From positions 1-48,273 of the IMG/VR virus record IMGVR_UViG_3300041809_000332: DNA of 48,273 nt. One strand, written 5' to 3'. A program made the translations under genes and the position numbers. Shown piece by piece: positions 18,444 to 47,959 of this stretch (the first letter of the stretch is position 1; each line of letters starts with the position of its first letter). The DNA comes from a virus. Under the pieces are notes generated by a model that was not told where the DNA came from, ran no database searches, and saw only the letters and a program-made list of their open reading frames with translations.

Positions 18444-19385
18444 ATGAACAAACCAAGCTTTGGGGTCATTGTCGGCAGGTTTCAGGTCCATGAACTTCAT
18501 GACGGACACATGGAGTTGTTCCGCATCGTCAAAGGGCGGCACAACCGTATCATCGTATTCCTTGGCTGCAACAAGGTCGGTCCAACCCGGCATGACCCGT
18601 TGGACTTCGAGACCCGGAAGAAGATGATTCAGGCGAAGTTCCCTGAGTTCACCGTGCTGCCCCTGCGGGACTGCAAGACTGACGAGCAGTGGTCGGACAG
18701 TTTGGATGAACGTATCTCCGAAGCCGTGGGAGAAGTTCCCCACGAAGTGGTATTATACGGTAGTAGGGACTCGTTTGCTCCCTTCTATCACGGGAAGCAC
18801 AAAGTCAAGGAACTGGAAATCGAGGTTCCGGCGTCCCTTACCAGCACGGATATCCGTGCCAAGCTGACCAATAACGTCATGGAAAGCCCCGACTTCCGGG
18901 CGGGCGTCATCTACGCCATGAACCAACTGTGGCCCCGGCTCGTTACCGTGGTGGACATCGCTATCCTGCACAAGGGGGAGCATAAGACTTTTCTTCTTCT
19001 TGGCAAGAAGCCCGATGACACGTTCTGGCGCTTTCCGGGCGGGCACGCAATATTCAGCACGCCAACCTTCGAGGCTGACGCCAAGAAGGAAGCGTTCGAG
19101 GAGACGGGTCTGGACATCCAAGACCTTGAATATGTCGGCTCTCGCAAGGTCGATAGCTGGCGCTGGCGGTCGGAGCCTTCGGAAGGTTTCAAGACCGTTT
19201 TCTTCATGTCGTATAGCATGACCATGGGTGGGAAAGGCAGTGATGACCTTGCTGAAACACGGTGGTTCCCACTTGATGCAATCTCCGTAGAGGATATGGA
19301 AAAAGAACATCAGCCCCTCTTCGAGATGCTGCAACAACATCTTACCAAAAAGGAGAACACACATGCCCAAAGCACTCAAGCTTAA
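18444..19385 (+). CDS. nadM: Bifunctional NMN adenylyltransferase / Nudix hydrolase
   Basis: Residues 1-165 form a nucleotidyltransferase of the NadM type: GRFQVHELHDGH contains the HxGH site (H19-D-G-H22), and TSTDIR near 133-138 matches the ISGTxIR motif. It joins NMN and ATP to make NAD+. Residues 175-300 form a Nudix domain, with a box at about 199-224 ending KEAFEETGLD (Lys where Arg is usual in REUxEExGU); in bacterial homologues this part cleaves ADP-ribose. The next gene, overlapping by 23 bases, makes NMN from nicotinamide, so the pair is a complete two-step NAD+ salvage route. A GAGGAGG site precedes the ATG. Confidence 0.92.
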   Translation: MNKPSFGVIVGRFQVHELHDGHMELFRIVKGRHNRIIVFLGCNKVGPTRHDPLDFETRKKMIQAKFPEFTVLPLRDCKTDEQWSDSLDERISEAVGEVPHEVVLYGSRDSFAPFYHGKHKVKELEIEVPASLTSTDIRAKLTNNVMESPDFRAGVIYAMNQLWPRLVTVVDIAILHKGEHKTFLLLGKKPDDTFWRFPGGHAIFSTPTFEADAKKEAFEETGLDIQDLEYVGSRKVDSWRWRSEPSEGFKTVFFMSYSMTMGGKGSDDLAETRWFPLDAISVEDMEKEHQPLFEMLQQHLTKKENTHAQSTQA

Positions 19386-20793
19386 CCCCATTTTAAGGAC
19401 AGACAGCTACAAGCTGTCGCACTGGTTTCAGTATCCTTCGGATGCGGAATATGTGTACAGCTACCTCATGAGCCGGGGTGGTTTCTGGCAGCACACGCTG
19501 TTCTCCGGGCTACAATACATCCTCGCCGCATACTTCGAGGGCAAGGTGTTCACCAAGAAAGATGTCCACGAAGCTGCCCGCATTTGTCACCGGCATTTCG
19601 GCAACGATGAAGTATTCAACTTCAACGGCTGGATGCGGTTGCTGGAAAAGCATGGCGGCAAGTTGCCCCTGCGCATCCGGGCGGTCAAAGAAGGCACCGT
19701 GGTCCCCATCAAGAACGTGTTGATGACCATCGAAAACACTGACAAAGAATTTCCGTGGCTGACCAACTGGGCGGAAACCCAACTCCTGCAAGTGTGGTAT
19801 CCCATCACGGTTGGGACCCTGTCTTTTGAAATCAAGCAGACCATCGGCAGAGACCTCGTGCGTACCGGTGACCCGGCTGGACTCGGTTTCAAGTTGCATG
19901 ACTTCGGGTACAGGGGCGTTAGCTCTCAGGAGACCGCCGCCATCGGCGGAGCCGCTCACCTTGTTAATTTCATGGGCACTGACACCATGGCGGCTCTTTC
20001 GCTTCTGGAGCAGTTCTACGATTGTCCCTGCGCCGGTTTCTCCATCCCGGCGATGGAGCACTCCACCGTTACCTCGTGGGGTGAGGATGCCGAGGCGGAA
20101 GCTTATGCCAACATGCTGGAGAAGGTCCCGGCTGGCCTCGTGGCACTCGTGGTAGACAGCTACGACACCCACAACGCCGTTGCTAACATCTTCGGCGGCA
20201 AGTTGCGGGAAACAATCCTGCGGCGTGACGGCGTGGTGGTTCTCCGCCCGGATAGCGGTGACCCCTGTGTCGTCATCGAAGACATGTTCAACGCCATTGC
20301 CGAGAAGTTTGGCTTCGAGACAAACGCCAAGGGTTGGAAGGTCCTGCCTAAGCAGGTCCGGGTCATCCAAGGCGACGGAGTCAACTACCAGAACATCTGC
20401 CGCATCAACAGTCACCTGACACGGGCCGGGTGGTCCATGGACAACTGGGGCTACGGCATGGGCGGTGCTTTGCTTCAACAGCAGAACCGTGATACCATGC
20501 GGTTCGCCATCAAATGCTCCGCCATCTGCCGGGACGGTCGTTGGGAAGATGTCCACAAGACGGTCAAGACTGACCCGTCCAAGGCATCCATCGGTGGCAG
20601 GTTCTCCCTCTTGGAGTTGTCGGACGGCGAGTTTGAGACTGTGGAGCAGGAATACGATATGAAGCTCGCCACAGGCCACGAAGACAAGCTGGAGACAGTA
20701 TTTGAAGATGGGGTCATTAAACGGCACCAGACCCTTGACGAAGTCCGGGAAATCTCCAGCGGCTATGACCGCTACAACCGGGAAGATGACTAA
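19363..20793 (+). CDS. nadV: Nicotinamide phosphoribosyltransferase
   Basis: The 476-residue protein has the NAMPT/NadV length and wording: NPILRTDSYKLSHW at the start, FKLHDFGYRGVSS and GGAAHLVNFMGTDTM in the middle, then IPAMEHSTVTSWG, VVDSYD and VVLRPDSGDP. These build the nicotinamide and phosphoribosyl pyrophosphate sites. It converts nicotinamide and PRPP to NMN, which the upstream enzyme turns into NAD+. Such pairs in phages are described as rebuilding NAD+ after host NADase defences (the NARP2-type route). An AAAAGGAGA site lies in the overlapping upstream gene. Confidence 0.95.
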   Translation: MPKALKLNPILRTDSYKLSHWFQYPSDAEYVYSYLMSRGGFWQHTLFSGLQYILAAYFEGKVFTKKDVHEAARICHRHFGNDEVFNFNGWMRLLEKHGGKLPLRIRAVKEGTVVPIKNVLMTIENTDKEFPWLTNWAETQLLQVWYPITVGTLSFEIKQTIGRDLVRTGDPAGLGFKLHDFGYRGVSSQETAAIGGAAHLVNFMGTDTMAALSLLEQFYDCPCAGFSIPAMEHSTVTSWGEDAEAEAYANMLEKVPAGLVALVVDSYDTHNAVANIFGGKLRETILRRDGVVVLRPDSGDPCVVIEDMFNAIAEKFGFETNAKGWKVLPKQVRVIQGDGVNYQNICRINSHLTRAGWSMDNWGYGMGGALLQQQNRDTMRFAIKCSAICRDGRWEDVHKTVKTDPSKASIGGRFSLLELSDGEFETVEQEYDMKLATGHEDKLETVFEDGVIKRHQTLDEVREISSGYDRYNREDD

Positions 20794-35388: not shown

Positions 35389-36084
35389 ATGGCGCAAGGT
35401 GGTTACATCTATCAGCAGGGAGCAAGCCCTCAGACGGAATCGGTGATTTCGTCTCGCTTCAAGATTTTCACCGACGTGGTGGGCGTGGGCAAGTTTGTCA
35501 AGTTGGGCGTCACCTCCCAGTTCAACATTTCTGAAACCCGCACGGTGGAGACCATCCGTGGCTTGGGGTACGGCGACCAAGTTGCCGAACTCGTGCCCGG
35601 CGTCACCGAGCCGTTGAGCATCACCATCCAACGGACCTGTCTCTATCTTGCCAACATCATGCAGGTCTTGGGCTACAAGGCTGGTGTTAGCGGCGGTGTG
35701 AGGTCCATCCGTCAGCATCGTTGGCCGTTTGACATCAAGACGGAAATCGTGTTCAGTCAGTTGGCGTCCACGACTCCCGGAACCCCAACCCCCAACTCGG
35801 GCGGGGCACAGCCAGACCTTACCAACGCCGACATTCCCAATGAGGGTGGGTTCAACAATCTGGGCAATCCGGGCCTCTTCGCCGTTGCCACGGTGTATGA
35901 AGGCTGCTGGATTTCCAACTACACGACTGGCTATGTCATCGAAACAGCGGCAGTCAATGAGAACGTCACAGTCAGTGTCACGGACATCTTCGATGTCAGC
36001 GGCACGGTCTACGGCGAGTTCCTTGACAGCGGTCTTGGACCGGGTGACCAAACTGGTCAGAGCTTGCTCTACTCCATATCCTAG
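35389..36084 (+). CDS. Putative tail tube protein
   Basis: The ATG at 35389 (GGAGGA five bases before) gives 231 residues; ATG 35377 is the alternative. The layout is a beta-barrel-type protein with TSQFNISETRTVETIRGLGY, then ELVPGVTEPLSITIQRTCLY and a C-terminal VTDIFDVSGTVYGEF. The phrase (V)PGxTEPxxITIxR is typical of myovirus tube proteins that stack inside the sheath. It lies close downstream of the sheath gene, as tube genes usually do. Confidence 0.7.
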   Translation: MAQGGYIYQQGASPQTESVISSRFKIFTDVVGVGKFVKLGVTSQFNISETRTVETIRGLGYGDQVAELVPGVTEPLSITIQRTCLYLANIMQVLGYKAGVSGGVRSIRQHRWPFDIKTEIVFSQLASTTPGTPTPNSGGAQPDLTNADIPNEGGFNNLGNPGLFAVATVYEGCWISNYTTGYVIETAAVNENVTVSVTDIFDVSGTVYGEFLDSGLGPGDQTGQSLLYSIS

Positions 36085-36088
36085 TTGG

Positions 36089-36120
36089 GTCAGTATTATA
36101 GAACTGACTCTCTATTTTTC
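36089..36120 (+). terminator. Weak candidate terminator after the tube gene
   Basis: GTCAGT (36089-36094) pairs with ACTGAC (36103-36108), followed by TCTCTATTTTTC. The stem has only six pairs with half A/T, so efficiency is doubtful. The loop holds TATTAT, so the same bases also match the recurrent promoter box; a GGAGG follows only 26 bases later. Confidence 0.4.
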
Positions 36121-36136
36121 AGCGGAGGTGTGGTTA

Positions 36137-36403
36137 ATGTCCAGCCCCGTAACCCGAGAACAGGTTTGGGTTAACGTTTCCCCGGAGTATAAATGCTGGC
36201 GGCTCGTGTACAACTCCATGACCAAGCGGGTTTTTATCCTCTTTGAGAAATCGGGACTGAGTAAGACCATGCAATCGTTGTTCTGTTCTACTCGAACAGA
36301 TGGTGAGCCGGGTGCGGTAAGCAGTGCTGAGGGTAAACAGGAGTGCCTTGACAAGGTTGCTTCCCTTGGTCTCGTTCTTACCAAGTCAACTGTTGTGGAG
36401 TGA
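36137..36403 (+). CDS. Hypothetical protein (88 aa)
   Basis: The ATG at 36137 lies nine bases after GCGGAGG. The protein is short, mixed alpha/beta and soluble (VWVNVSPEYKCWRLVYNSMT; CLDKVASLGLVLTKS). No family was recognised. The stop is two bases before the next gene. Confidence 0.65.
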   Translation: MSSPVTREQVWVNVSPEYKCWRLVYNSMTKRVFILFEKSGLSKTMQSLFCSTRTDGEPGAVSSAEGKQECLDKVASLGLVLTKSTVVE

Positions 36404-36405
36404 GT

Positions 36406-36561
36406 ATGCCCTATTACCAGACAGCAATGACCGACAGAAAATGTTCCAAGTGCGAAAAGACCATTCCCGCTGGGGCACAGTTCATCACCCTTCCCACAAT
36501 TACCCGAATGACGTTGTATACCTGCAAGGAATGCAATGAGGGTTCGGATAAGAAGGCGTAA
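36406..36561 (+). CDS. Small zinc-ribbon protein (51 aa)
   Basis: The 51-codon frame begins at ATG 36406 with GTGGAG upstream. Two knuckles, CSKC (13-16) and CKEC (40-43), make a treble-clef or ribbon-like zinc site. The stop overlaps the next possible start as TAATG. The function is unknown. Confidence 0.7.
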   Translation: MPYYQTAMTDRKCSKCEKTIPAGAQFITLPTITRMTLYTCKECNEGSDKKA

Positions 36562-36821
36562 TGGCTACATCGGTCGGTCTAATCATTGGAGTACTCGCTG
36601 TTATTCCCATAGGCACTTTACTGTTTATGGGATTGGCAAGGGCCTGTTCCCCCCACTCTCTCCAGCAATCTGCTACATCTTTGACAAGGTCCTTTTGTGA
36701 GGAAGCCGCATCCTCTTCCCCGTTCGTAGGGGACTCTCTCCCTCCACTGGTTAACGGTGGGGTCTGCTATATCTCCCTTGTCATTAAAGAGAAACCAGTG
36801 AGTTCCTCGGGAACCTCGTAG
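36561..36821 (+). CDS. Possible membrane peptide overlapped by an antisense gene
   Basis: An ATG in a TAATG overlap opens a frame of 86 codons. Only the first 28 residues look like a protein (one membrane segment, SVGLIIGVLAVIPIGTLLFM); the rest lies opposite the gene at 36618-37004 and has a random composition. It may be a small membrane protein whose original 3' part was replaced when the antisense gene arrived. Confidence 0.35.
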   Translation: MATSVGLIIGVLAVIPIGTLLFMGLARACSPHSLQQSATSLTRSFCEEAASSSPFVGDSLPPLVNGGVCYISLVIKEKPVSSSGTS

Positions 36822-37004
36822 TACCCCCGGCCTGTATCCTCTTGATTTACCCCATAGATAATAAAGGGCTTCTGTTGCCGTGTAACAATGGCTGAAAGTG
36901 GGGTCATCACCCGGCTGGCGTTTCTCCAGCCACTCTTTTTTCAACAAATCGTCGGATAAGGCTCGCTGCAAGAGCCTGATGGCTCTCTTCTTTGTCATCC
37001 CCAT
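36618..37004 (-). CDS. Conserved-type phage protein with possible Cys-His-Asp site (128 aa)
   Basis: The wording FSHCYTATEALYYLWGKSRG, then THWFLFNDKGDIADPTVNQW and ending GRGCGFLTKGPCQR matches a protein type seen in several large phages. A Cys in HCY, a His in THW and an Asp in DPT are placed like a papain-like triad, but activity is inference. It is the only minus-strand gene between the tube and capsid genes that is not a homing nuclease. Confidence 0.7.
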   Translation of the reverse strand: MGMTKKRAIRLLQRALSDDLLKKEWLEKRQPGDDPTFSHCYTATEALYYLWGKSRGYRPGVLRGSRGTHWFLFNDKGDIADPTVNQWRERVPYERGRGCGFLTKGPCQRCSRLLERVGGTGPCQSHKQ

Positions 37005-37048
37005 ATTGCTTGATACTGAAAATCAAAGCTATACGGTGCTTTAGTTGA

Positions 37049-37062
37049 GGAGAAGTATCTCC
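37049..37062 (+). promoter_or_regulatory. Hairpin covering the ribosome site of the 37065 gene
   Basis: GGAGA (37049-37053) is exactly complementary to TCTCC (37058-37062) around AGTA, and the ATG is two bases on. The Shine-Dalgarno sequence is therefore in the stem. This could hold translation down, or shorten an otherwise long 12-base gap to the ATG. Confidence 0.55.
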
Positions 37063-37064
37063 AT

Positions 37065-40000
37065 ATGCTTATAACCAAACCGCACAACCCCTTGCTCATA
37101 AAAGCCGAAATGCTTCCTGTCCCCGGAGGCGGGGTGGGGGGATTCGACAAAGAGGAGCTTTTTGATAGCCCGGATTATGCGACCCAGCAACATCACGCCG
37201 AGCCGACTACCGATATCCCCTACAACAAGCCATTTGGGGAGAAGGGCACAGAGATTGAGCAGAATAAGCATGGGTCAGCGGATGCGGTAGACGGACTATC
37301 CGATGGAGTGGGCGACTTTTGGGAACCACGGACCAAGCCTAAGCTACGAACAGCCTCCGATTCTTCCATGTGCCGGTGTGGTCATCAGTTCCACGAGCAT
37401 TGGAACCGAGGCAGGTTTGGTTGCAAGAGTCCCCGCTGCCGGTGCAAGAAGTTTACGGCTAAGACCGGAAGCGTGAGCGCCATGCCCGTCAAGATTGTTA
37501 GTGATTCAGACAACGAACTCCTGAAAGCAAAACATGACCCCATTACTCAGGTAGCCGCCGAGGAGTTCCACCCCTCCGGTAAACGGATACAGGACCGGGA
37601 AGAATTCCGGGCCTCCCTCAAGAAAGAATGGGAAGAGCCGGACGGATATCTCTTCCGGTCGGAAGTCTACTGTCCTCGCTGCGGGATGGAGATGATTGAC
37701 GAGATGTTGGACAAGGGGCAGGTTGGCCCTCCGGGACCAGTTGATGACCCGGATTATGTGACCGACTCAGAGGTCATCCCACAACCCCTGCTTTCTTTGG
37801 AATCCGGGGCGGAGACGTGTGCAAATTGCGGAGACCCGATTGAGAAGGAAGCAATCGTCCCCGGTGAATATACCCCCGAGGATGAGCAGTTCATGAAGGA
37901 GATGAAGATTTGGGGGTCTCTCAAGGGATTGGTAGATACCGTTCAGCCCCATAATCCCCTTCTCCAGCCGCCCGACCCGGAGACAGCGACATTCTTCAAG
38001 GAGAGCGAGGGAGACGGCCCCCATTGTCCCCACTGCGGTTCTTCGGATTACGGTCTCATGCCCACCGATTTTGAAACCGCTAAATGTAATGCCTGTGGAA
38101 AGAATTGGAATCATGGTATTGTGAAAGGGATTAACGACCCTAAAACCGCCGCCGAACCCGGTCCCGAGGGTTTTCCTCCACTCCAACGTGAGCTTGATTA
38201 TTCCGGGTGGTCTACTATTGGAAATCTAAATAAATACCTTACACAACTTTACAATGCTTGGCTTAACAAAGAAATCACTCGTGAAGAATATGAGGCCGAG
38301 CATTACTTGGCAAATGCGGCTTATAATGCCGCTAAAGCAGCATGGGTGGACCCGGAGTACCGGGAATTAGCTAAAACTATAGACTCATCAGCGGCTAGGC
38401 ATGATGTAGATTTTATGAAATCTATAGGAATCTCCTCCTCCAAGACTGCTACAGAAAAGTCCTTTGGAACCGGCACTCCCATTGGAGGAGCACCCGGCGC
38501 TCCCGTGCAGAATGACCCCAATCAGCCCCGGTGGACGGCTCCTACACCACCGAAGCCTGCTCAGACAAACCCACAGACAAACAGTAAGGCACTGCCATCG
38601 TCAGCGCCGGACCAACAACAAGCAAAACCCACGGGAACTGAACAGCAGCAGGTTAAGCAAGTAGTTAACGACCTAGCCAAAGATAACCCGCAGGTTAATA
38701 GGGCGGAGATGGAAGATGTGGTGGAGAAGGTGCAGGATAAGATGTCCGCCTTGGACTCAGAAGTGAAGATATATGACAGCACCGATATGCTGCCGCCGAG
38801 GACCGAGCTTCGCAAGCACCTTGACCCCACTTTGATTGATGAAAGCACCAAGCCGCCTCGTCCCCTTAAGAAGGGAGCGGATTGGACGGGAGAGGATGAG
38901 CCGGAAGGTGAAGTCACCGACATGGGTACGCTCTATGGCAAGCCCCTTGGCGGTCCAAAGGCTGACGACTCAGTAAAGGACCGGTTGGAGTATCTGAGAA
39001 GTAAACTTAGAGCCGAAAACATAAGCACAAGTGAGTTGCTTGAGTTACAGGAGTTGGCTGACCATATCGAACCCGGTGACGTTGAGTTACTGGAGGCAGC
39101 CGGGGTTCCTGAGAACGAAGAGACCTCCTCAGAACCCATTATTGGTAAGCCCGCATTTGCAGGTCCGGGTATACCCCACATCAACCTCAAATGTAAGCTG
39201 TGCGGTGTTACGAGCGATGAACTGAATCGCACAGACATCGCTATGGGCAACAGGTTCAGCAAGCCCTCCATCCATGGAGCCGAGGGGCTTATGCACAGGC
39301 ACTTTGGTTATTCTCACTGGGACACTCCTTTCGGCCCGGAAGGTTATGAGGATGTGACTCGTGCCAAACCATTCAGGCCCACTAAGGGAGATAAGGACTT
39401 CATGAAGTCTCTTGGCATCAAGAGTTCCAAGATTGCCGCCGATGCCGAGGGATGGTGGAGAAGCACCCAGAACACCGAGCGTCGTAATGTAGCCGACAAG
39501 CTTGGAATCGACAAGTACTGGAGCCACTTTACATGGGATTCTCTCCCCGAGGAAATCAAGCAGAAAGTGAATGTCACCCTGCCGGAACTGGAAAGAAAGA
39601 CGCAGATTGAAAAGGCGTGGGAAGGTCCCGCTCATGTTTCCGAACGAGACCAACAAATCCGGGAAGCGTGGAATGCTCCTGCTCATACGGCAGCAGGGAA
39701 AGACTGGGACCCTCTCGTTGCCAAGAAACTCTATGACGAAGGGGCAGCCGCCGCCAAACAGGGCAACTGGGATGTAGCCCACAGTAGCCTTGTTCAATCC
39801 CTTGTACACAATCCATATAACGGACAAGCCAACTTTCTTCTGGGTATTGTGTTTGCTCAGATGGGCGAGAACAAGGCAGCCATCCAGCAGTTGGAGCAAG
39901 CGTTGCGAACCGACCCCAAGGAACGCTACGCCTATCACAGCATGGTAATGCAGATGGACCGTGACGGGGACCTTGAGAGCCTCGAACCCGAGGTGAAGAA

Positions 40001-40181
40001 TTTCCTCTTGGACAACATGGTATCAAAGGCAGCCGCAGCTAAGATTGCTGTGCCGATAGAGGAGGGCAATCTCGTTTGTCCCCATTGCAAATGTGACAAG
40101 ACCAAACCTGTGGAAGATTCTGAGGCTGAGGGAGTAAACCTCGTGGAATGTATGAATTGCGGGGTGTTCTTTAGCAAGTAG
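37065..40181 (+). CDS. Very large zinc-ribbon/TPR virion-region protein (1038 aa)
   Basis: The protein is a chain of small modules. A CxC/CxxxC cluster lies near 102-128 (CRCGHQFHEH ... CRCKKF). CPRCG is near 207, CANCG near 253, CPHCG ... CNACGK near 323-348, a CKLCG finger near 709, and a final ribbon CPHCKC ... CMNCG ends the chain. Between them are Pro/Gln-rich linkers and helical parts. Residues about 885-970 form three TPR-like helix pairs. PHNPLL occurs twice (near 6 and 294), and FMKSxGIxSSK occurs twice (about 448 and 780) with a weaker third copy. It precedes the protease and scaffold genes, so it is probably an internal head protein or a substrate of the protease. No enzymatic motif was seen. 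Confidence 0.8.
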   Translation: MLITKPHNPLLIKAEMLPVPGGGVGGFDKEELFDSPDYATQQHHAEPTTDIPYNKPFGEKGTEIEQNKHGSADAVDGLSDGVGDFWEPRTKPKLRTASDSSMCRCGHQFHEHWNRGRFGCKSPRCRCKKFTAKTGSVSAMPVKIVSDSDNELLKAKHDPITQVAAEEFHPSGKRIQDREEFRASLKKEWEEPDGYLFRSEVYCPRCGMEMIDEMLDKGQVGPPGPVDDPDYVTDSEVIPQPLLSLESGAETCANCGDPIEKEAIVPGEYTPEDEQFMKEMKIWGSLKGLVDTVQPHNPLLQPPDPETATFFKESEGDGPHCPHCGSSDYGLMPTDFETAKCNACGKNWNHGIVKGINDPKTAAEPGPEGFPPLQRELDYSGWSTIGNLNKYLTQLYNAWLNKEITREEYEAEHYLANAAYNAAKAAWVDPEYRELAKTIDSSAARHDVDFMKSIGISSSKTATEKSFGTGTPIGGAPGAPVQNDPNQPRWTAPTPPKPAQTNPQTNSKALPSSAPDQQQAKPTGTEQQQVKQVVNDLAKDNPQVNRAEMEDVVEKVQDKMSALDSEVKIYDSTDMLPPRTELRKHLDPTLIDESTKPPRPLKKGADWTGEDEPEGEVTDMGTLYGKPLGGPKADDSVKDRLEYLRSKLRAENISTSELLELQELADHIEPGDVELLEAAGVPENEETSSEPIIGKPAFAGPGIPHINLKCKLCGVTSDELNRTDIAMGNRFSKPSIHGAEGLMHRHFGYSHWDTPFGPEGYEDVTRAKPFRPTKGDKDFMKSLGIKSSKIAADAEGWWRSTQNTERRNVADKLGIDKYWSHFTWDSLPEEIKQKVNVTLPELERKTQIEKAWEGPAHVSERDQQIREAWNAPAHTAAGKDWDPLVAKKLYDEGAAAAKQGNWDVAHSSLVQSLVHNPYNGQANFLLGIVFAQMGENKAAIQQLEQALRTDPKERYAYHSMVMQMDRDGDLESLEPEVKNFLLDNMVSKAAAAKIAVPIEEGNLVCPHCKCDKTKPVEDSEAEGVNLVECMNCGVFFSK

Positions 40182-40221
40182 GGTAAAATCCTGAATAGGG
40201 GAGTGCTTTAGTAGAGGATAC

Positions 40222-41121
40222 ATGTCATTTCCGAAGACGGCAAACGCAGTAGTTCGGGAGCCAATGCTCACCCCGCAGGCTTGGGAACAGCATTTCGGTT
40301 CGAGGGCTTTCCACATCCCCTTGTCCCCACCCGCCAAGTCTTTCTGGAAGACTGCCTCCACTAAGCAGACCAAGTACCTCCTGAGTCACTGCACTATCAT
40401 GTCCTCGGTCGCCGTGGAAGCGGAGCCGTATGAGTACCTCATCCGCCCGGCCTCCGCCCACCTTGTAAACAACAACGATGACGCTTGGTCCTCCGAAGTG
40501 CTCAAGAAGTCTTACAAGAGCTTCGTGGGAGCTTTCAATTTTGTCGAACATTTCCAGAACAGTAAATATGCCAAAGGGCACATAATTGATTCTGTTTTGA
40601 GGAAGATACACCTTACTCAAGACCCACGAGATAACGTTTTCTTCGTGGATATTCTGGTAGCTACTGACCTTTCTCACAAGAAGCTTGCCGCTCAGATTCG
40701 TGATGGACAAGTCAAGTACCTATCCATGGGGTGTGTCACCGACCTCGTAATCTGTTCTTTCTGCGGTCAGCATGTGACCGACTCCAGCAGCTATTGTCAC
40801 CACCTCCAGTTCAACAAGGGCAGCTTCATGCCGGATGATGACGGCGTGCCCCGGCGTGTAGCGGAACTCTGCGGACACAAGAACCTACCGGGTGGGGGAG
40901 TCAAGTTTGTGGAGGCTTCTTGGGTCCAGACCCCGGCTTTCCCCGGCGCAGTCAAAAGGTCTATCGTGGCTGAGGAGTGGTTGGGTCCGGCTACATCCTA
41001 CACACGGGTTACAGCGGGTAAGGAAGCTTTTGCTAAGGCAGCCTCAGAAAATGGCAACTATGAAGGTCTTAATGTGGGAGAGCTTCTTCTCTCTCGGGAC
41101 GACGGAAGGAACCTACGCTAA
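40222..41121 (+). CDS. Putative prohead (capsid maturation) protease
   Basis: The 299-residue protein has the order expected for the prohead protease of large myoviruses. A beta-rich core contains GAFNFVEHF and YAKGHIIDSVL (a possible catalytic His). VDILVATDLSHKKLAAQIRD follows, then YLSMGC with the probable catalytic Ser, and a CSFCG ... CHH zinc-like element. The gene is followed immediately by a scaffold-like gene and then, after fibre genes, by the major capsid gene. Such proteases cut scaffold and capsid tails during head assembly. The catalytic assignment is inference. The ATG follows TAGAGGA. Confidence 0.65.
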   Translation: MSFPKTANAVVREPMLTPQAWEQHFGSRAFHIPLSPPAKSFWKTASTKQTKYLLSHCTIMSSVAVEAEPYEYLIRPASAHLVNNNDDAWSSEVLKKSYKSFVGAFNFVEHFQNSKYAKGHIIDSVLRKIHLTQDPRDNVFFVDILVATDLSHKKLAAQIRDGQVKYLSMGCVTDLVICSFCGQHVTDSSSYCHHLQFNKGSFMPDDDGVPRRVAELCGHKNLPGGGVKFVEASWVQTPAFPGAVKRSIVAEEWLGPATSYTRVTAGKEAFAKAASENGNYEGLNVGELLLSRDDGRNLR

Positions 41122-43469
41122 TGGCAACAAATCCACTTATCGCCGCATATAAGCGCAAGGTTGCAGAGCTTGGCGCTTTGGACAATGAAATCAAGAACTT
41201 GGATATGACTCTCCCCGAGGGTGAAGGCGGGAAGACATTCGATTACTTGGCTGAGAAGCGTAAGGAAATCGAGAAAGATATTCAAGGAATGAAGGAGAAA
41301 GTGGAGTTCCTAAACGCTTGGGAACGCTTCAAGCAAGGCCCATGGTCTCCCGAACTTAAGAGCGAGTTGGATGGACTGGACCAGATCCTCGGAGATATCG
41401 CTACCGGGGATAAGCTGGGAAATACCACCCCGCCCGGCCCGGCCCCCGAGGCAGAACCGCCCGCAGAACCCCCTCCCGCCGAAGCACCTGAATCACCCGC
41501 TGAGGCACCCATGGCAGAACCACCCGCTGAGATACCCGCTGAACCACCGCAAACCCCCGAGGGAACCACTGGGGTATCCCCGGAACCACCGCCCGCCCCC
41601 GCCCAACCAATGATGGCGAGCAAGAAACAGAACTATCAAATACCTGATAAGAAGGGCAGCAACAGCCCTAACTCCGAGAGGGGAAAGATTATGGCAAAAG
41701 ACACTAAGGTTTCAATGAAGGAATCCATCGCCGCTGTCAAGGCGGATAAGGACGCTATCAAGCGGGAAGCCAAGACTCGTGTGGCTGCTGCTTGGACTAT
41801 CGCCAAGACGATGCTGCCCACTGCTCCGGTGGAAGCCCAGAAGGCATTTGCTCAAAGCCTGCTCGCCAACAAGACGAGCGCTTTGAAGGCTGCTCTCAAG
41901 CAGACAGCCGTCAATGCCCACTATACCCGGCTTGCTGACCTCGGCACGCTCAAGGAAGTCCACAGGGACGAGATGAACGACACCGAAAAGCATGACAAGC
42001 CCGGTGACTTGGCGGCAGAGAAGAGTGCCGTGAAGTCTGAAGTCAAGGGAGAGGCCGTTAATGCCTCCGCCAAGAAAGCGGATGACCGGCAGGATGCCGG
42101 ACCGCAGACCCCGACCTATAATGACGGGCGTGGTCATGGTGGTGGTACCGCCTCGGAGCCGAAGGAAGTCGATGCCGGTAAGGCAGCCGAGCGTCCCGGT
42201 GCTGGTGAGCGCCCCGGAGACACGGTGAACCTGTCGGAAGGTGCATCCAAGGCCGAAGGTGGAGATGGAGCGCCCAAGGCAGCCGCCAAGACAGCCACAT
42301 GCCCGAATTGCAAGGGTGGTAAGATGTGCGCCAAGTGTACCGCTGCCAAGGCAGCAGCCGCCAAGAGCAAGAAGGCGTATCCCGGACCCGAGGCAGCCGC
42401 CCCGGCAGCCCCCGCCGCTCCGCCCGCCGCACCCCCAGTAGAAGCCGCACCGATGGATGCCGCCCCCGTGGAAGGCGAGATGCCGCCCATGGAAGGCGAG
42501 ATGCCACCGATGGAAGGCGAAGGTATGCCGCCTGCCGAAGGTGGAATGCCGCCCGCAGAAGGCATGGGAGATGCAGCCGGTGCCGGTGAGATGGTGACCG
42601 AGGAGAAGATTAAGGACCTCGGCGAAAAGGCACAGGAACTCGTAACCGAAATCCACGAGCTTGAAGAAGCGGTTGCCAAGGAAGAGACCAAGGGAGAAGA
42701 AGTTCCCGAGGGCGTCCTTGAGACCGAAGGTGAGGAACTTGAGCAGGTGGGTGAGACCCTCGAAGGTGAGGGACAGGCCGTTGAAGGTGAAGGAGAGAGC
42801 CTCGAAGGCGAAGGTGCCGAACAGGAACTCAACCTTGAGAACATCTTTAACGAAGACAACATGGAAGAGAAGACCTCCGCACTGGCAAACGAAGGAGACA
42901 ACTCCGGTGCCGACTTCTTCTCGCCGTCCGCCGCCTCCACCATGGAAGCTGCTCTGGACAACAACGGCATTCAGGAATTCGGGGATGTCGTAGCCTCCAT
43001 GTTCAGCCGCCAAGGTGCCGATGACGACCCGCTGGCAACCCTGCTTGGTCAGGTCCGTACCGCCGCCTCCGTGGCGGGTATGGAAGTTCTCCCGGCCTTT
43101 GATGGGTCCGCCGCCAAGCACTTCGAGCAGAAGGAAACTTCCGCCGATAGCCGTAACAACGAGGAAGACCACAAGGACGACCTGTGGGCCGAAGTCATCA
43201 CTGACGCCGCCCCCGAGCCGCAGGAGTTCAAGGAAAACTCCACCGGCACTGGTCCCGTCCGTACTCCGCAGGACGCCGTTCCCGCTTTGAAGGAACCCGC
43301 CCCCGGACAGACTCCTCAATCCCAAGGGAAAGCAGCCGCCCCCAAGGCAGCCGCCAAGCCGACGCTTAAGAAGATTAAGCCGGTGATGGCTTCCGACGCC
43401 TCCACGCCAAAGGCAATCAATATTGGCGATGCGATGTTCGGACCCAACGACGGTATCCCGCAGGACTAA
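41121..43469 (+). CDS. Putative head scaffold/core protein, acidic and repetitive (782 aa)
   Basis: It starts in a TAATG overlap with the protease gene. Residues 1-95 are coiled coil, followed by a Pro/Glu/Ala-rich linker (100-165). A basic helical unit (190-270) follows. A Cys cluster CPNCKGGKMCAKC lies near 394-406, and Ala/Pro linkers surround repeated acidic units (EGEMPPMEGEMPPMEGEGMP near 453-472; LEGEGQ/VEGEGE/LEGEGA near 547-570). The composition, length and position between protease and capsid genes fit a scaffold or core protein removed by proteolysis. A clear terminator follows. Confidence 0.72.
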   Translation: MATNPLIAAYKRKVAELGALDNEIKNLDMTLPEGEGGKTFDYLAEKRKEIEKDIQGMKEKVEFLNAWERFKQGPWSPELKSELDGLDQILGDIATGDKLGNTTPPGPAPEAEPPAEPPPAEAPESPAEAPMAEPPAEIPAEPPQTPEGTTGVSPEPPPAPAQPMMASKKQNYQIPDKKGSNSPNSERGKIMAKDTKVSMKESIAAVKADKDAIKREAKTRVAAAWTIAKTMLPTAPVEAQKAFAQSLLANKTSALKAALKQTAVNAHYTRLADLGTLKEVHRDEMNDTEKHDKPGDLAAEKSAVKSEVKGEAVNASAKKADDRQDAGPQTPTYNDGRGHGGGTASEPKEVDAGKAAERPGAGERPGDTVNLSEGASKAEGGDGAPKAAAKTATCPNCKGGKMCAKCTAAKAAAAKSKKAYPGPEAAAPAAPAAPPAAPPVEAAPMDAAPVEGEMPPMEGEMPPMEGEGMPPAEGGMPPAEGMGDAAGAGEMVTEEKIKDLGEKAQELVTEIHELEEAVAKEETKGEEVPEGVLETEGEELEQVGETLEGEGQAVEGEGESLEGEGAEQELNLENIFNEDNMEEKTSALANEGDNSGADFFSPSAASTMEAALDNNGIQEFGDVVASMFSRQGADDDPLATLLGQVRTAASVAGMEVLPAFDGSAAKHFEQKETSADSRNNEEDHKDDLWAEVITDAAPEPQEFKENSTGTGPVRTPQDAVPALKEPAPGQTPQSQGKAAAPKAAAKPTLKKIKPVMASDASTPKAINIGDAMFGPNDGIPQD

Positions 43470-43490
43470 ATTCGCAGACGTGCAACCCCA

Positions 43491-43526
43491 CCCCCGGCAA
43501 TCAGTACTCGCCGGGGGTTCGTTTTT
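43491..43526 (+). terminator. Rho-independent terminator after the scaffold gene
   Basis: CCCCCGGC (43491-43498) pairs with GCCGGGGG (43510-43517), followed by TTCGTTTTT. The eight-pair G/C stem and T-run make a strong terminator. The 220 bases between it and the tRNA hold no convincing gene; TTTTATAAATC near 43645-43655 may be a promoter box. Confidence 0.85.
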
Positions 43527-43746
43527 AGGCCCTTATGAATCCTACCACAATACGCCCGGAGCCGCTTTTAACAGTAGTTTCGGGCGTCCTTCCTTGGCAC
43601 GCCAGTGAATAAAAGTTCCACCAAAATATTCAATTTTCTTTGTGTTTTATAAATCAAGCGAGGAGAATACGAAATACCGGTCTCATCTATAACCCGCTCT
43701 CATGGGGTCTACTTTGTGGGCTTATTCCCTATGGGGAAAGTTTGGC

Positions 43747-43850
43747 GGAGGGGTGGCCGAGTGGTTTAAGGCACTGGATTGATAATCCAGAGACCGGTAA
43801 ATCTTGGAAGGATGAACGGTCCGTGGGTCCGAATCCCACCCTCTCCGCCA
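43747..43850 (+). tRNA. Type II tRNA, serine-like body with GAT anticodon, CCA encoded
   Basis: The acceptor stem pairs GGAGGGG (43747-43753) with CCTCTCC (43840-43846), then G73 and an encoded CCA. The D arm reads GGCCGAGTGGTTTAAGGC. The anticodon stem CTGGA/TCCAG encloses the loop TTGATAA, so positions 34-36 are GAT (43781-43783), the isoleucine anticodon. The T stem GTGGG/CCCAC encloses TCCGAAT, with C at position 55 where T is normal. The variable arm is 32 bases (43791-43822), stemmed by GACCG/CGGTC, longer than normal for Ser or Leu. Body, long arm and G73 are serine identity elements; SerRS does not read the anticodon. Either it decodes Ile codons with Ser or it has a non-standard role. 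Confidence 0.85.
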
Positions 43851-43875
43851 GTTAAAGACTAACTCTTACTATGAA

Positions 43876-43907
43876 GTTAAAAGTCCAACTACCACACTCC
43901 TATATAA
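43876..43907 (+). promoter_or_regulatory. Possible promoter of the fibre gene
   Basis: TATATAAA at 43901-43908 could be a -10 box, with TTAAAA about 17 bases upstream. The fibre ATG is 46 bases downstream, preceded by AAAGGAGAG. The support is only positional. Confidence 0.3.
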
Positions 43908-43953
43908 AGGCAGTCCCCGGTAAACAACTTTTAGTTTTCAAAGGAGAGTAATC

Positions 43954-44847
43954 ATGTCTTCTTCTACATTCACTGGAACTCTTCAATTTCGCCATGACCC
44001 CGCAGCCGATTGGACATCCGATAATCCCACCTTAGCAGTCAGTGAGATGGGAGTAGAAACGGATACTAGCCTCTTCAAACTTGGAGATGGTTCAACTCCA
44101 TGGGACACATTACCCTATGGCGGTTTAGCGGGGCCTACCGGTCCCACAGGTTATACCGGACCTAGCGGTTCCTCCGGTCCTACCGGATACACGGGCTACA
44201 CCGGGCCAAGCGGGTACACCGGGTTTACCGGCTACACAGGGCCGGGTCTTCTTGGGCCTACACAAGTGCAAGATGCTTTTGCTACCATCAATCCCGGTAG
44301 TGGGGGTCAAAATCTGACATTGACGTTTGGTTCCACACCGACAGTCGGAAATATCCTATTATTTATAGCATTAACTCCAAATTCATGGAATAGTATTCCA
44401 TCGGGAGCTATCCGACTTCTTACTCCAAGCTACAGTCCCGTTTCAGCGTGGTGTAAGATAGTCCAAAGCGGGGATGGTGTAAATTGGACCTTCCAAGCGA
44501 CGTATGCATACCCTGCGGGCATCGCCGGATATGAGTTTTCAGGGGTTTCTGGTATTCAAGTGGCCTACAGTGGCTCATATGTTGTTAACGGTAACACCGT
44601 TTCTTTTCCTCCAATGCTGATGTCAAACGGGGTTTCCAACATTTTCAAGTTGCTGTTCAGTCAAAGTAACCAAACCCAAGTTGCTTACTCTTCGACCTCG
44701 GGAACTTTGGACTACAACAACAACACCGGGTCTTCTTACTGGTCAACATTAGTGACAGCAACAAGCTCATCCCCGGCTGTTCCGCCGACTGTAACATATG
44801 CAAGTGCGCCTCAAATGCAAAGCGGATTGATTGTTTCCGTACAGTAG
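43954..44847 (+). CDS. Fibre/receptor-binding protein with Mtd-like N-terminus and collagen-like repeat
   Basis: Residues 1-57 follow the N-terminal domain of the major tropism determinant family ([20 protein letters not shown], then [20 protein letters not shown], then LPYGG), which attaches receptor-binding proteins to phage tails. Residues about 58-98 are Gly-x-y collagen-like triplets ([13 protein letters not shown] and more), giving a trimeric rod. The C-terminal 190 residues are a Ser/Thr/Asn/Gly-rich beta domain likely to contact the host. The gene has its own AAAGGAGAG site. A GIY-YIG gene follows on the other strand, ten bases past the stop. Confidence 0.85.
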
Positions 44848-44857
44848 ACGCCGACGC

Positions 44858-45502
44858 TTATTGAGTTGTGGGGGAATGCCAGTATAAACAAGCCTTGCGG
44901 TGTCCACCATAGACACCTTTAGTAACTTGTTTGAATTCCTGCCCGCAAGTGGGGCATGTATAGTCTTTCAATTTAATATTCTCAATAGCGTTAACTTGGC
45001 GGGCGACCCCCGCCTGTTTTTTACGACGGTTTCTACCTTGTTCAGTTTCAGTATTCCAGTGAGCAGCCATCTTCTGGCGTTGAGATAGGGGTTTGGGTTT
45101 CCCTTTGAACCTTCTTCCAGTTGAATCTCTTGTTCCTTGTGGACATGGCCTACCTGACATTGCCTCACTCACTGCCTTTCTCATTTTCTCTTTTACTTCT
45201 TCGATACCGGAGCACCCATCTCCCCCGAGTGTCATATTATACCCGTATTTGTAGTCATGGGTTCTAAGTAAAACCACCCAAAGACTCTCAAGCCGATTCA
45301 TCTGTTCTTGATTTTCACATTCAGTCACCCCCTCGGCTACGAATGCCTCCGGTCCATACTTGCGTATGGCACAATAAAGACGATTACTTTTTCCGGCTTT
45401 GGTTTTTTTGAGGTGCTCCTTCCACCGTTCTTCTACTGAAAGAGTAGTCTGACCCACATACTGTTTTCCGTTGACCAAATTCGTTACCAAGTAGATGTGC
45501 AT
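44858..45502 (-). CDS. GIY-YIG homing endonuclease with C-terminal zinc finger
   Basis: The N-terminus reads IYLVTN with QYVGQT ten residues on, a diverged GIY-YIG core (YVG for YIG). The catalytic Arg lies in VEERWKEH and the Glu in NRLESLW. The middle carries a NUMOD-like stretch (IEEVKEKMRKAVSEAMSGR). The C-terminus has a C2HC-type finger, CPTCGQEF ... GGHRKAC. It is AT-richer than its structural neighbours and sits between fibre and capsid-type genes, so it is an insertion. It is more distant from the two helicase-flanking copies than they are from each other. The ribosome site is GGGGAGAG. Confidence 0.87.
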   Translation of the reverse strand: MHIYLVTNLVNGKQYVGQTTLSVEERWKEHLKKTKAGKSNRLYCAIRKYGPEAFVAEGVTECENQEQMNRLESLWVVLLRTHDYKYGYNMTLGGDGCSGIEEVKEKMRKAVSEAMSGRPCPQGTRDSTGRRFKGKPKPLSQRQKMAAHWNTETEQGRNRRKKQAGVARQVNAIENIKLKDYTCPTCGQEFKQVTKGVYGGHRKACLYWHSPTTQ

Positions 45503-45551
45503 ATCTCTCCCCTTATGGTTTGGATAGTCTTTATTTTATGGGCAGGCTTTT

Positions 45552-45665
45552 ATGGGCAAACGCAAGAGATACATTTTTGAACTACCTACCCTATATATGA
45601 GAAGTGGTCTGGTCCCTATAGTCCCGAAGTCTACTCCTAGACAGAGGATTGGGGATACAGGCTAA
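45552..45665 (+). CDS. Possible 37-residue basic peptide
   Basis: A short frame (MGKRKRYIFELPTLYMRSG and on) fills part of the 217-base gap between the GIY-YIG start and the next gene. The ribosome site is poor (CAGG), and no domain is visible. It may be chance; the region also has to hold promoters for both flanking genes. TTATAT before GGAG at 45687-45694 resembles the recurrent box-plus-purine signal. Confidence 0.28.
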   Translation: MGKRKRYIFELPTLYMRSGLVPIVPKSTPRQRIGDTG

Positions 45666-45719
45666 TCCAAACTTCTTATATGGAGACTTAAATCTTCATG
45701 AGTTCATCAAGGAGAACTT

Positions 45720-46352
45720 ATGGGTTTGAAATTAGTCTACTACGGTCAGAACGATAGCGTCAATGCTACGCCGGACGTTCTCCTCACTGGAGACCCCGGA
45801 ACCGACCAGACCACCCTGATTAACGCAGGGTATCTGGCAGGCCGCATCATGGCTATCGCAGGAAACCCCCAGAATGCCTCCAACGTGGAGACGGTCATCG
45901 TTCCCTGTGACGTAGACGCAACTCTCGGCAGCATCGAGACTGCGACTGCGGGCATCATCGGAACGGGTCCGTTCAACCCCGGTGACAGGCAGTATACCTC
46001 CAATGCAACCACTACAGTGGCAGCAGGTAACAAGCCGTTCGCTGCACTGCTCAACGGTCCCGGCGAGTTTTCCGGCGCTATCGGACCTGCGGGCAGCAAG
46101 AAAGCTCCCGTGGTTCGTGGTCTCTGGCAAGGTAACATCAACCAAGAGTCGTATGACACACAGGCCGGTGTAACTTTTGTTGCCGGTGACTATGTGTACT
46201 GCGGTTCTCACAGCCCTGCGGCTGGGAGTGCGAATGTTGGGTTGTATACCGACAAGGCCCATACATCCGCCACGAACATCATCCCGGTCGGCATCTGCAC
46301 TCACGTCCCCAGCACTCAGGAGCCGTGGCTGGGCGTAGCAAGTCTGCTCTAA
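45720..46352 (+). CDS. Putative head decoration-type protein (210 aa)
   Basis: An AAGGAGA site precedes the ATG. The protein is beta-rich, rich in Gly, Ala and Thr, and has almost no long helices (NAGYLAGRIMAIAGNPQNAS; GVTFVAGDYVYCGSHSP). It lies directly upstream of the major capsid gene, where decoration or capsid-stabilising proteins often lie, and shows the GC-rich codon use of highly expressed structural genes here. The role is inferred from position and composition. Confidence 0.65.
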   Translation: MGLKLVYYGQNDSVNATPDVLLTGDPGTDQTTLINAGYLAGRIMAIAGNPQNASNVETVIVPCDVDATLGSIETATAGIIGTGPFNPGDRQYTSNATTTVAAGNKPFAALLNGPGEFSGAIGPAGSKKAPVVRGLWQGNINQESYDTQAGVTFVAGDYVYCGSHSPAAGSANVGLYTDKAHTSATNIIPVGICTHVPSTQEPWLGVASLL

Positions 46353-46358
46353 TTGGAA

Positions 46359-46374
46359 GGTAGCTTAGGCTACC
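46359..46374 (+). other. Hairpin between decoration-type and capsid genes
   Basis: GGTAGC and GCTACC form a perfect six-pair stem with a TTAG loop, seven bases after the stop codon. No T-run follows, so it is more likely an mRNA processing or stability element than a terminator. Confidence 0.4.
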
Positions 46375-46414
46375 CCACCGATTAGGCAAGGAACAGGAAA
46401 AAGAGGTAATTCAA

Positions 46415-47416
46415 ATGGCAAATCTTTCCCGTACCCAACAGCAGACTGCTATGTTGGGTCAGCTTCTCAAGACCGCTGGCGGACGCCAAAAGCTCGCCGC
46501 TAGCCTCGGACCGTCCCTTCGTCGGCGTCGTGACTATATGAGCATTGCTCGCAAGGCTCTCATGGTCGAAACGCTACCGGACGGCGCACTCCCCATCTAT
46601 GACAAGGAATTTGACATCATGGCACAGACGGTGTCCAGCACACCGGGTGGGTCGTTTGTTGAAGCCTTCGTCGTTGGTGAGGAAGGCGGAGACATCGTTC
46701 GGGTCACCAAGCCCAAGCGGGTCACCGTTCCGACCTTTGAAATCGTCAGCAACCCGATGATTCCCATCACCCAGATTAAGGAACGTCGGTTCGACTTGGT
46801 CGCTCGTTCTCTGAACCTCGCCAAGGCAGAAGTCGGCGCAGCCGAAGACGGATACGTTTTCGGATTGTTCGACGCAGTTGCCGCCGCAGCCAACACGCAA
46901 GTGGCTGCCGACAACGCCGCCAAGGCAGGCTCGGGCCTGTTTGACCCGGTCTACAATGGGGACATCGCCATCAGCGCTCCCATTGACATCAACTCCATGG
47001 CTGATGGATTCGGACAGGTACAGCGGCACGACCTGTCGGTTGCGTTCTGTTTCTTTAACCCCCGTGATTACACGGACTTACTGAAATGGACGCAGCAAAA
47101 TATCGACCGTGAGACGCAGCGTAAGCTACTCAAGACCGGCGTCATGGGCTACCTGTGGGGGGCTACACTCCTCCAGTCCCGTAAAGTCGGCTACGGCTGC
47201 GTATACATCCTCGCTGATGCTGAGTTCCTCGGCGTCATCCCGGAGCGTATCCCGCTCACCGTTATGTCGGCAGACCGTCCTGACCTCCGCCAGATTGGTT
47301 TCTCGATTTTCGAGAACCTCGGGTTCCTCGTATTCAACCCGTCCGGCGTGCAGCGGCTTACCGTCAATGGTCGGTTCGAGTCCTTCATCAGCGGTCAGAA
47401 CATCGGCGAGAACTAA
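46415..47416 (+). CDS. Major capsid protein (HK97 fold)
   Basis: The 333-residue protein begins with a helical arm (RTQQQTAMLGQLLKTAGGRQ). An E-loop-like region follows (VSSTPGGSFVEAFVVGEEGG), then a P-domain with long helix (ERRFDLVARSLNLAKAEVG ... LFDAVAAAANTQVAADNAAK) and an A-domain (RIPLTVMSADRPDLRQIGFS, then a final beta end). This order is the HK97 capsid fold of large-phage capsid proteins. It is preceded by protease and scaffold-type genes and followed by a strong terminator. It should form the hexamers of the head shell. Confidence 0.85.
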   Translation: MANLSRTQQQTAMLGQLLKTAGGRQKLAASLGPSLRRRRDYMSIARKALMVETLPDGALPIYDKEFDIMAQTVSSTPGGSFVEAFVVGEEGGDIVRVTKPKRVTVPTFEIVSNPMIPITQIKERRFDLVARSLNLAKAEVGAAEDGYVFGLFDAVAAAANTQVAADNAAKAGSGLFDPVYNGDIAISAPIDINSMADGFGQVQRHDLSVAFCFFNPRDYTDLLKWTQQNIDRETQRKLLKTGVMGYLWGATLLQSRKVGYGCVYILADAEFLGVIPERIPLTVMSADRPDLRQIGFSIFENLGFLVFNPSGVQRLTVNGRFESFISGQNIGEN

Positions 47417-47440
47417 TCGCCCTCTGATTGCCCAACTCCA

Positions 47441-47478
47441 CGGCGGGGGTCTTTCGAGACCCTCGCCGTTCTCTTTTT
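47441..47478 (+). terminator. Rho-independent terminator after the capsid gene
   Basis: CGGCGGGGGTCT (47441-47452) pairs with AGACCCTCGCCG (47457-47468) around a TTCG loop, with one G-T pair. TTCTCTTTTT follows. It is the strongest terminator in the window. Confidence 0.92.
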
Positions 47479-47501
47479 AGCCCACCTTTTCTCCGAAACT
47501 C

Positions 47502-47518
47502 AGTATTATCCTACGGAG
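47502..47518 (+). promoter_or_regulatory. Candidate promoter, TATTAT box before GGAG
   Basis: AGTATTATCCTACGGAG is very close to the copy at 3101-3119 (AGTATTATCCAGTAGGAG). It lies just past the capsid terminator and starts a new unit with the ATG at 47525, which makes a promoter role likely. Confidence 0.55.
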
Positions 47519-47524
47519 AACTCT

Positions 47525-47959
47525 ATGCCCCGATTCGTGGTTTCACTCTACTGCCCGGATGATGAGAACTTGGAGTCTGACCTTCACTCTTTCGCCCGCC
47601 AAAACAAGCTCTCTTACGATAAGGTTGAGGAGCTTGTAGGCCGCTACCTCATTGACGGTGAATATCTTAGGATACAGTTTGACACCGACTTGGAAACCTG
47701 CGTCATTCTGCCTGATGGTTTCGAGGGAGTGAACGATTACGACCCCTACCTGCATGTTCCCAGCGTTGAGGAGGAAACGGCACTGGCAAAAGCAAAGAAG
47801 AGGGTTGCCGACCTGCAACGACAAATCACTCAGACCAAGGCTGATTATGAGGCCCTTTCCGGGGACGAACGGCAGACCAAGTATGCCGAGGGGTTGATTA
47901 AGTTCATCGCCGGGAATCGGAAGGAAATTAAGGAAATCAAGCAGGAGTACGCTATCTGA
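47525..47959 (+). CDS. Hypothetical protein (144 aa)
   Basis: The first 85 residues are mixed (RFVVSLYCPDDENLESDLHS; YLRIQFDTDLETCVILPDGF). Residues 85-144 are helical and charged (ALAKAKKRVADLQRQITQTK) and may form a coiled coil. No family was recognised. It is the first gene after the capsid terminator. Confidence 0.7.
   Translation: MPRFVVSLYCPDDENLESDLHSFARQNKLSYDKVEELVGRYLIDGEYLRIQFDTDLETCVILPDGFEGVNDYDPYLHVPSVEEETALAKAKKRVADLQRQITQTKADYEALSGDERQTKYAEGLIKFIAGNRKEIKEIKQEYAI

Follow-up and report, generated by a model that had tools for sequence, protein, structure and literature searches.

A phage-borne tRNA with a serine-type body and a GAU anticodon, and similar RNAs in phages and bacteria

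Our analysis of a 48,273-nt stretch of phage DNA (IMG/VR record IMGVR_UViG_3300041809_000332; hereafter the window) indicates that the gene at 43747-43850, on the plus strand, encodes a complete class II tRNA in which a serine-type body carries the isoleucine anticodon GAU. From its identity elements we predict that this tRNA is charged with serine and reads AUC and AUU codons. The best reading of the gene, to which we give a probability of about 0.45, is that of a host-derived, serine-acceptable missense tRNA. The combination of serine-type body and GAT anticodon had been proposed, with the same coordinates, in an initial annotation made from the letters alone; that description proved correct, and its interpretation as a whole is partly supported.

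Structure and identity of the tRNA

The gene, which includes G73 and an encoded CCA, is the sole Rfam match in the window (RF00005, 43747-43847, 58.7 bits, E 3.1e-10), and its minimum-energy fold is predicted to be a cloverleaf of -41.3 kcal/mol (z -1.9). All its parts lie on the plus strand. The acceptor strands GGAGGGG (43747-43753, with G1 and G2 intact) and CCUCUCC (43840-43850 together with G73 and CCA) form 7 bp, including G5-U68, and the 5' strand is followed by U8 and G9. The D arm GCCGAGUGGUUUAAGGC (43756-43772) is of serine type, with C11-G24 and a 3-bp stem GCC/GGC, and it matches Acidobacteriaceae tRNA-Ser; A26 precedes the anticodon stem. In the anticodon arm CUGGA-UUGAUAA-UCCAG (43774-43790) the seven-base loop places GAU (43781-43783) at positions 34-36, followed by A37 and A38, and GAU is the true anticodon because a shift of one base to the serine anticodon UGA breaks the anticodon stem. 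The T arm GUGGG-UCCGAAU-CCCAC (43823-43839, with C55 at 43829) has a stem of 5 bp and completes a 7/5 class II tRNA. Between these arms the variable arm takes up 32 nt (43791-43822) and, from its fold and from comparison of lineages, appears to be two-tiered, with an outer 5-bp stem GACCG/CGGUC, a 4x3 internal loop and an inner 5-bp hairpin. Since its stem pairs throughout, the arm looks undecayed. The length of this arm, G73, the serine-like D arm, the seven-base loop and C55 had all been listed in the initial annotation and are confirmed by direct reading of the sequence.

When run on the window, ARAGORN did not find the tRNA at 43747-43850, probably because of the overlong variable loop. 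An identical sequence is present in two further IMG/VR records, of 237,553 bp and 7,823 bp; with three records in agreement, an assembly error in a single contig is unlikely to be the source of the gene.

The tabulated serine determinants of bacteria are G73, C72, G2-C71 (absolutely conserved in most bacterial tRNA-Ser), R4-Y69, C11-G24 and a large variable region, and those of isoleucine are A73, C4-G69, U12-A23, C29-G41 and G34 A35 U36 A37 A38 (PMC9976931). The window tRNA carries every member of the serine set, the long variable arm included. From the isoleucine set it has G34 A35 U36 A37 A38 and none of the rest, which read G73, G4-C69, C12-G23 and G29-C41 instead. With the variable arm set aside, its core is identical at 65 of 72 positions (90%) to Acidobacteriaceae Ser(UGA) and at 43 of 72 (60%) to Ile(GAU). 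Thus, as far as sequence can tell, the earlier prediction of a SerRS substrate holds. It is nearly identical to Acidobacteriaceae tRNA-Ser in the acceptor, the D and T arms and the discriminator, and departs from bacterial tRNA-Ser by GAU in place of NGA or GCU, by its 32-nt variable arm and by C55. Its anticodon loop UUGAUAA agrees with that of tRNA-Ile(GAU), which however has a short class I variable loop rather than one of 32 nt, while tRNA-Sec differs in having a 13-bp acceptor domain (8/5 or 9/4) and UCA, against 7/5 and GAU here.

Could the tRNA be a remodelled isoleucine tRNA, charged by IleRS through its anticodon loop and supplying the Ile(GAU) that is missing from the phage's tRNA arrays? 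G34 A35 U36 A37 A38 are all IleRS determinants, and ARAGORN finds no other Ile(GAU) in those arrays. However, G73 stands where A73 would be required, three stem determinants are missing, the serine set is complete and the core bears only a 60% likeness to Ile(GAU), and we therefore regard this reading as very improbable.

As to ancestry, the top match in 41 Acidobacteriaceae genomes (L141) is itself a serine-bodied GAU tRNA, 90% identical over nucleotides 3-42. The anticodon arm differs at three positions from that of the phage's own Ser-GCU tRNA, CUGGU-UUGCUAA-ACCAG, namely by C35 to A and by a swap of the pair 31-39. The missense reading would begin with an Acidobacteriaceae-type tRNA-Ser gene copied into the phage, where the anticodon would have become GAU and the variable arm would have grown to 32 nt. 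As a separate observation, one Acidobacteriaceae genome (G102, contig 16, 139312-139419; L487) holds a serine-bodied tRNA that carries the cysteine anticodon GCA, has its acceptor intact and spans about 36 nt in the variable arm; ARAGORN misses this one as well.

Genome setting and distribution among phage relatives

The 237,553-bp record opens with 12 kb that are identical to window positions 35919-47918, and the 7.8-kb record is identical to 39699-47521. Because the window overlaps the start of the longer record, the virus measures at least 273 kb, which makes it a very large peat-bog phage, kin of Tunturiibacter phage Tunturi_5. Its major head protein (46415-47416, plus strand) is closest to that of Tunturi_5, with 68.9% identity, and more distantly related to that of Bacillus phage G. 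Since the host of Tunturi_5 is an acidobacterium, the host group of the present phage is probably Acidobacteria.

The 237-kb record holds about 40 tRNA matches, among which the window tRNA stands alone at 7.8 kb, about 85 and 112 kb away from the two tRNA arrays: a class II array (L034, 92.0-93.6 kb) with Tyr, Leu and Ser, and a class I array (L035, 119.5-126.6 kb) with His, Arg, Asn, Lys, Phe, Met, Pro, Gln and Trp. In these arrays ARAGORN found no Ala, Gly, Val, Thr, Asp, Glu, Cys or Ile(GAU). The separation of class II from class I tRNAs into distinct arrays is an observation in its own right, as are the six-base anticodon loops of two array tRNAs. Neither the 237-kb record nor two relatives contain a SerRS-type (PF00587) or IleRS-type (PF00133) domain.

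The neighbours of the tRNA are structural genes and a homing endonuclease gene, with no adjoining integrase gene such as might mark the tRNA gene as an integration (att) site. Upstream lies a plus-strand gene for 782 amino acids (41121-43469) with no PHROGs family, for which we assume a scaffold position since it sits between the head-maturation protease gene and the major head protein region; downstream follow a collagen-like tail fibre protein with an Mtd_N domain (43954-44847, plus strand) and a GIY-YIG homing endonuclease (44858-45502, minus strand). Elsewhere in the window, 19363-20793 is a nicotinamide phosphoribosyltransferase gene (PHROG 448, E 1.3e-148). A sequence scan around the tRNA detected no sigma-70-like promoter or terminator. 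At 43640-43675, upstream of the tRNA, TTTATAAATC is followed by a GAGGAG motif, resembling an orphan late promoter and ribosome-binding site.

With the major head protein as query we found 80 loci in relatives, and apart from identical copies the window tRNA is missing at the equivalent place in all of them, which rules against a conserved phage gene at this site. In the nearest relatives (L038-L040, 86-90% DNA identity) sequence comparison shows that the whole plus-strand stretch 43596-44887, with tRNA and fibre gene, is missing, so that the counterparts of 43595 and 44888 lie 41 bp apart; in L042 and L043, which do have the fibre gene, the intergenic stretch is short and the tRNA is absent. 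As relatives lack the tRNA at the same site, it must have been gained here, or lost elsewhere, very recently. Searched with blastn against named phages, it gave no homologue; similar queries also match plasmids, in matches without an established GAU. All known copies, in the three IMG/VR records that probably come from neighbouring samples, are identical, and with no diverged copy there is no direct evidence of purifying selection on the window tRNA. A hairpin-like element GCGCCCGGA...TTTCGGGCGTCC at 43557-43600, 3' of the 782-aa gene, is found also in L038, L042 and L069 and is conserved in relatives where its flanks are not.

This distribution would suit a recent neutral passenger, a host tRNA-Ser captured beside the fibre and homing endonuclease genes whose anticodon and variable arm then drifted, leaving it functionless and with little or no expression. 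The empty site in all relatives examined and the existence of identical copies only are what such a reading leads one to expect, as are C55, the want of a recognisable sigma-70 promoter and a variable region that houses a homing endonuclease. On the other hand, all stems are intact, including the 10 bp of the variable arm, and CCA is encoded. We hold a passenger to be somewhat unlikely, also in view of what is found outside this group of phages.

Serine-bodied GAU tRNAs elsewhere

We searched for a D arm of serine type with the anticodon loop YUGAUAA behind it, which yielded 13 matches in viral contigs and 53 in bacterial contigs, one genome per species. Matches were kept if both the anticodon stem and the T stem paired, a T-loop was present and the variable region was long; there remained 33 distinct Ser-GAU tRNAs in 32 lineages of many phyla, in phages and diverse bacteria. 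In essentially all 32 lineages the bases of the anticodon and T stems pair, and since many different base pairs are used, these stems covary; the variable-arm hairpin is present in almost all, and acceptor pairs 4-7 are mostly kept. Drift alone predicts neither that some 32 lineages should have GAU on a serine body and covarying stems, nor that in six out of the seven other phage records with such a tRNA, some of them fragments, no further tRNA should be matched; both points count against a passenger. The initial annotation had also suggested a degenerate relic, an idea that the perfectly paired stems and these scattered similar RNAs weaken.

The acceptor end behaves differently. Of the 32 lineages, 26 have a mismatch at pair 2-71, mostly C-C, G-A or G-G, and in these pair 1-72 is usually non-Watson-Crick too. 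In viral contigs searched with the same D-arm pattern the mismatch occurs in 0 of 94 ACU, 2 of 36 GUU and 0 of 4 UAU tRNAs (Fisher p 1e-21 against ACU and 6e-11 against GUU), which suggests a special status of GAU, in a comparison that sets viral controls against a mostly bacterial GAU set and uses a pattern in which D arm and anticodon loop are fixed. The acceptor is intact in the window tRNA, with G2-C71, and in four others (L124, L129, L153, L158). The rest of the set includes a 5'-changed form, with C at position 2 and the 3' CC-G-CCA kept (L118, L122, L128, L133, L166, L170), and a 3'-changed form that keeps 5' GG, has A or G at 71 and lacks CCA; by eye, several RNAs of the latter form have promoter-like sequence up to position 1 and an inverted repeat after the body. 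C55 is shared by the window tRNA and L133/L135 (2 of 33 distinct tRNAs) and by one of the four UAU tRNAs, and occurs in none of 130 controls. For the anticodons GGU, CCU, UCU, CAU and AAU, one step away from GCU, no class II tRNAs were among the matches listed, and for further anticodons the matches listed were for the most part tRNAs for Cys and Tyr of the ordinary kind.

For such RNAs there is no Rfam family of their own, the matches being RF00005 and a reverse-complement plastid match, and ARAGORN misses them or labels them tRNA-Ile. They share no neighbouring gene family; integrase, portal, methylases, DUF4238, DUF5131, HNH and transposase are all found beside them. In Acidobacteriota they are present in 1 of 396 genomes, the one being the query genome. 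One Opitutaceae genome carries three identical copies (L132, L154, L163), two of which are set 62 bp into a 2.5-kb repeat that resembles an insertion element and whose ends are GGTAGTGTCC/GGACACTACC. Viral contigs also contain at least 36 distinct class II tRNAs (L183-L236) with a serine-like D arm, G73 and the asparagine anticodon GUU, whose pair 2-71 is mostly C-G or U-A and not the serine G2-C71.

The open-acceptor RNAs, whose stems covary and which occur on phage, plasmid-like and chromosomal contigs, resemble the window tRNA in serine body, GAU and hairpin variable arm, and differ from it in the broken pairs that it retains. Because 26 of 32 lineages are mismatched at 2-71, serylation of Ser-GAU tRNAs appears to be generally selected against. 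The simplest reading of these sequences would be that a serine-bodied tRNA with GAU does harm once it is charged, and that charging was therefore lost and the RNA kept, with a role as decoy or regulator or a linkage to mobile DNA as candidate reasons for its retention. This 2-71-broken set is more surprising than the window tRNA itself. We entertain, as a rather unlikely extension, that the set represents undescribed tRNA-like RNAs in phages and elements of several phyla, several of them apparently beginning at position 1 and ending at a terminator directly behind the body, uncharged GAU mimics with 2-71 opened against SerRS that may serve, for example, as decoys of tRNA-Ile-directed nucleases or as regulators, the window copy then being a still-chargeable member whose lengthened variable arm offers an added binding site.

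A related proposal concerns the window tRNA directly, namely that it is a decoy or sink, mimicking the tRNA-Ile anticodon loop and so distracting an anticodon nuclease of the host, or some other defence factor that binds tRNA, with the serine body barring IleRS. Lone Ser-GAU copies in unrelated phages are consistent with this, as is the fact that most Ser-GAU tRNAs have lost the 2-71 determinant of SerRS and kept the anticodon and variable arms, like a non-translating mimic. Phage tRNAs are moreover known to counter tRNA-cleaving defences (PMC10264068, PMC11555353); like the window tRNA these are phage-encoded and have an unusual anticodon arm. However, they act by functionally replacing the host tRNA that is cleaved and are not wrong-bodied decoys, whereas in the window tRNA body and anticodon disagree, and the window copy retains its serine determinants. 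A decoy thus seems to us quite unlikely.

Codon use, known systems and consequences

How would a missense tRNA act in this phage? When codons from five window genes are compared with relatives, AUC aligns with Ile in 70% and AUU in 75% of cases, and Ser is outside the top six residues aligned to either codon in these genes. We therefore reject a reassignment of these codons from Ile to Ser; the earlier idea of Ser at Ile codons fails as general recoding. AUC and AUU together make up about 43 per thousand codons, so that a fully active Ser-GAU tRNA would be a burden to the phage. SerRS ignores the anticodon. If transcribed, the window tRNA would be charged with serine by host SerRS and would read AUC and AUU against abundant host tRNA-Ile; the outcome would be a natural missense tRNA causing low-level Ile-to-Ser substitution, allo-tRNA-like in action. 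The phage might gain proteome noise, host damage or a spare anticodon loop against nuclease, or might merely tolerate the gene. Several points weigh against the missense reading: the scan around the gene showed no sigma-70-like promoter or terminator, only identical copies exist, most Ser-GAU lineages have a broken 2-71 pair, C55 removes pseudouridine 55, and a tRNA that puts Ser for Ile is expected to harm the phage's own proteins. Hairpin tags at the tip of the variable arm leave allo-tRNAs active and a single bulge in its stem blocks SerRS (PMC7590224), so the long arm alone leaves charging undecided; by analogy with that bulge the 4x3 internal loop may disturb SerRS binding.

The nearest known systems are the allo-tRNAs, reported from Clostridia, Proteobacteria and Acidobacteria, which accept serine although their anticodons are not those of serine and whose stems are 8/4 or 9/3. 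Two allo-tRNAs from Silvibacterium (Acidobacteriaceae) brought serine to codons for other residues when expressed in E. coli (PMC7609411). Like the window tRNA, allo-tRNAs have serine identity elements, a long variable arm and non-serine anticodons, including the isoleucine anticodon UAU; they come from Acidobacteriaceae and from peat or soil data, and some have stem-destabilising changes and lie by transposon-related genes (Mukai et al. 2017; PMC7609411). The window tRNA is nevertheless phage-borne and 7/5, its eighth pair U8-C65 being unformed, and it has a 3-bp D stem GCC/GGC where the 9/3 allo-tRNAs have a long one. As its stems are neither 8/4 nor 9/3, we do not file it as an allo-tRNA. 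In tRNA-ProX of Streptomyces, tRNA-Sec with GCA and the yeast CUG-Ser tRNAs, body and anticodon are likewise mismatched and the body's synthetase does the charging; unlike the window tRNA, the hybrid-identity tRNAs described there concern other amino acids and none is phage-borne (PMC11415595).

More generally, a natural tRNA with a body for one amino acid and an anticodon for another introduces local ambiguity into the genetic code. If the window tRNA is charged with serine, the phage would encode a means of miswriting a hydrophobic residue that is among the commonest; an uncharged window tRNA would instead point to tRNA mimics in phages. In either case the roughly 32 serine-bodied GAU RNAs, most of them without the 2-71 determinant, form a testable collection for the question of why mismatched tRNAs persist in phages.
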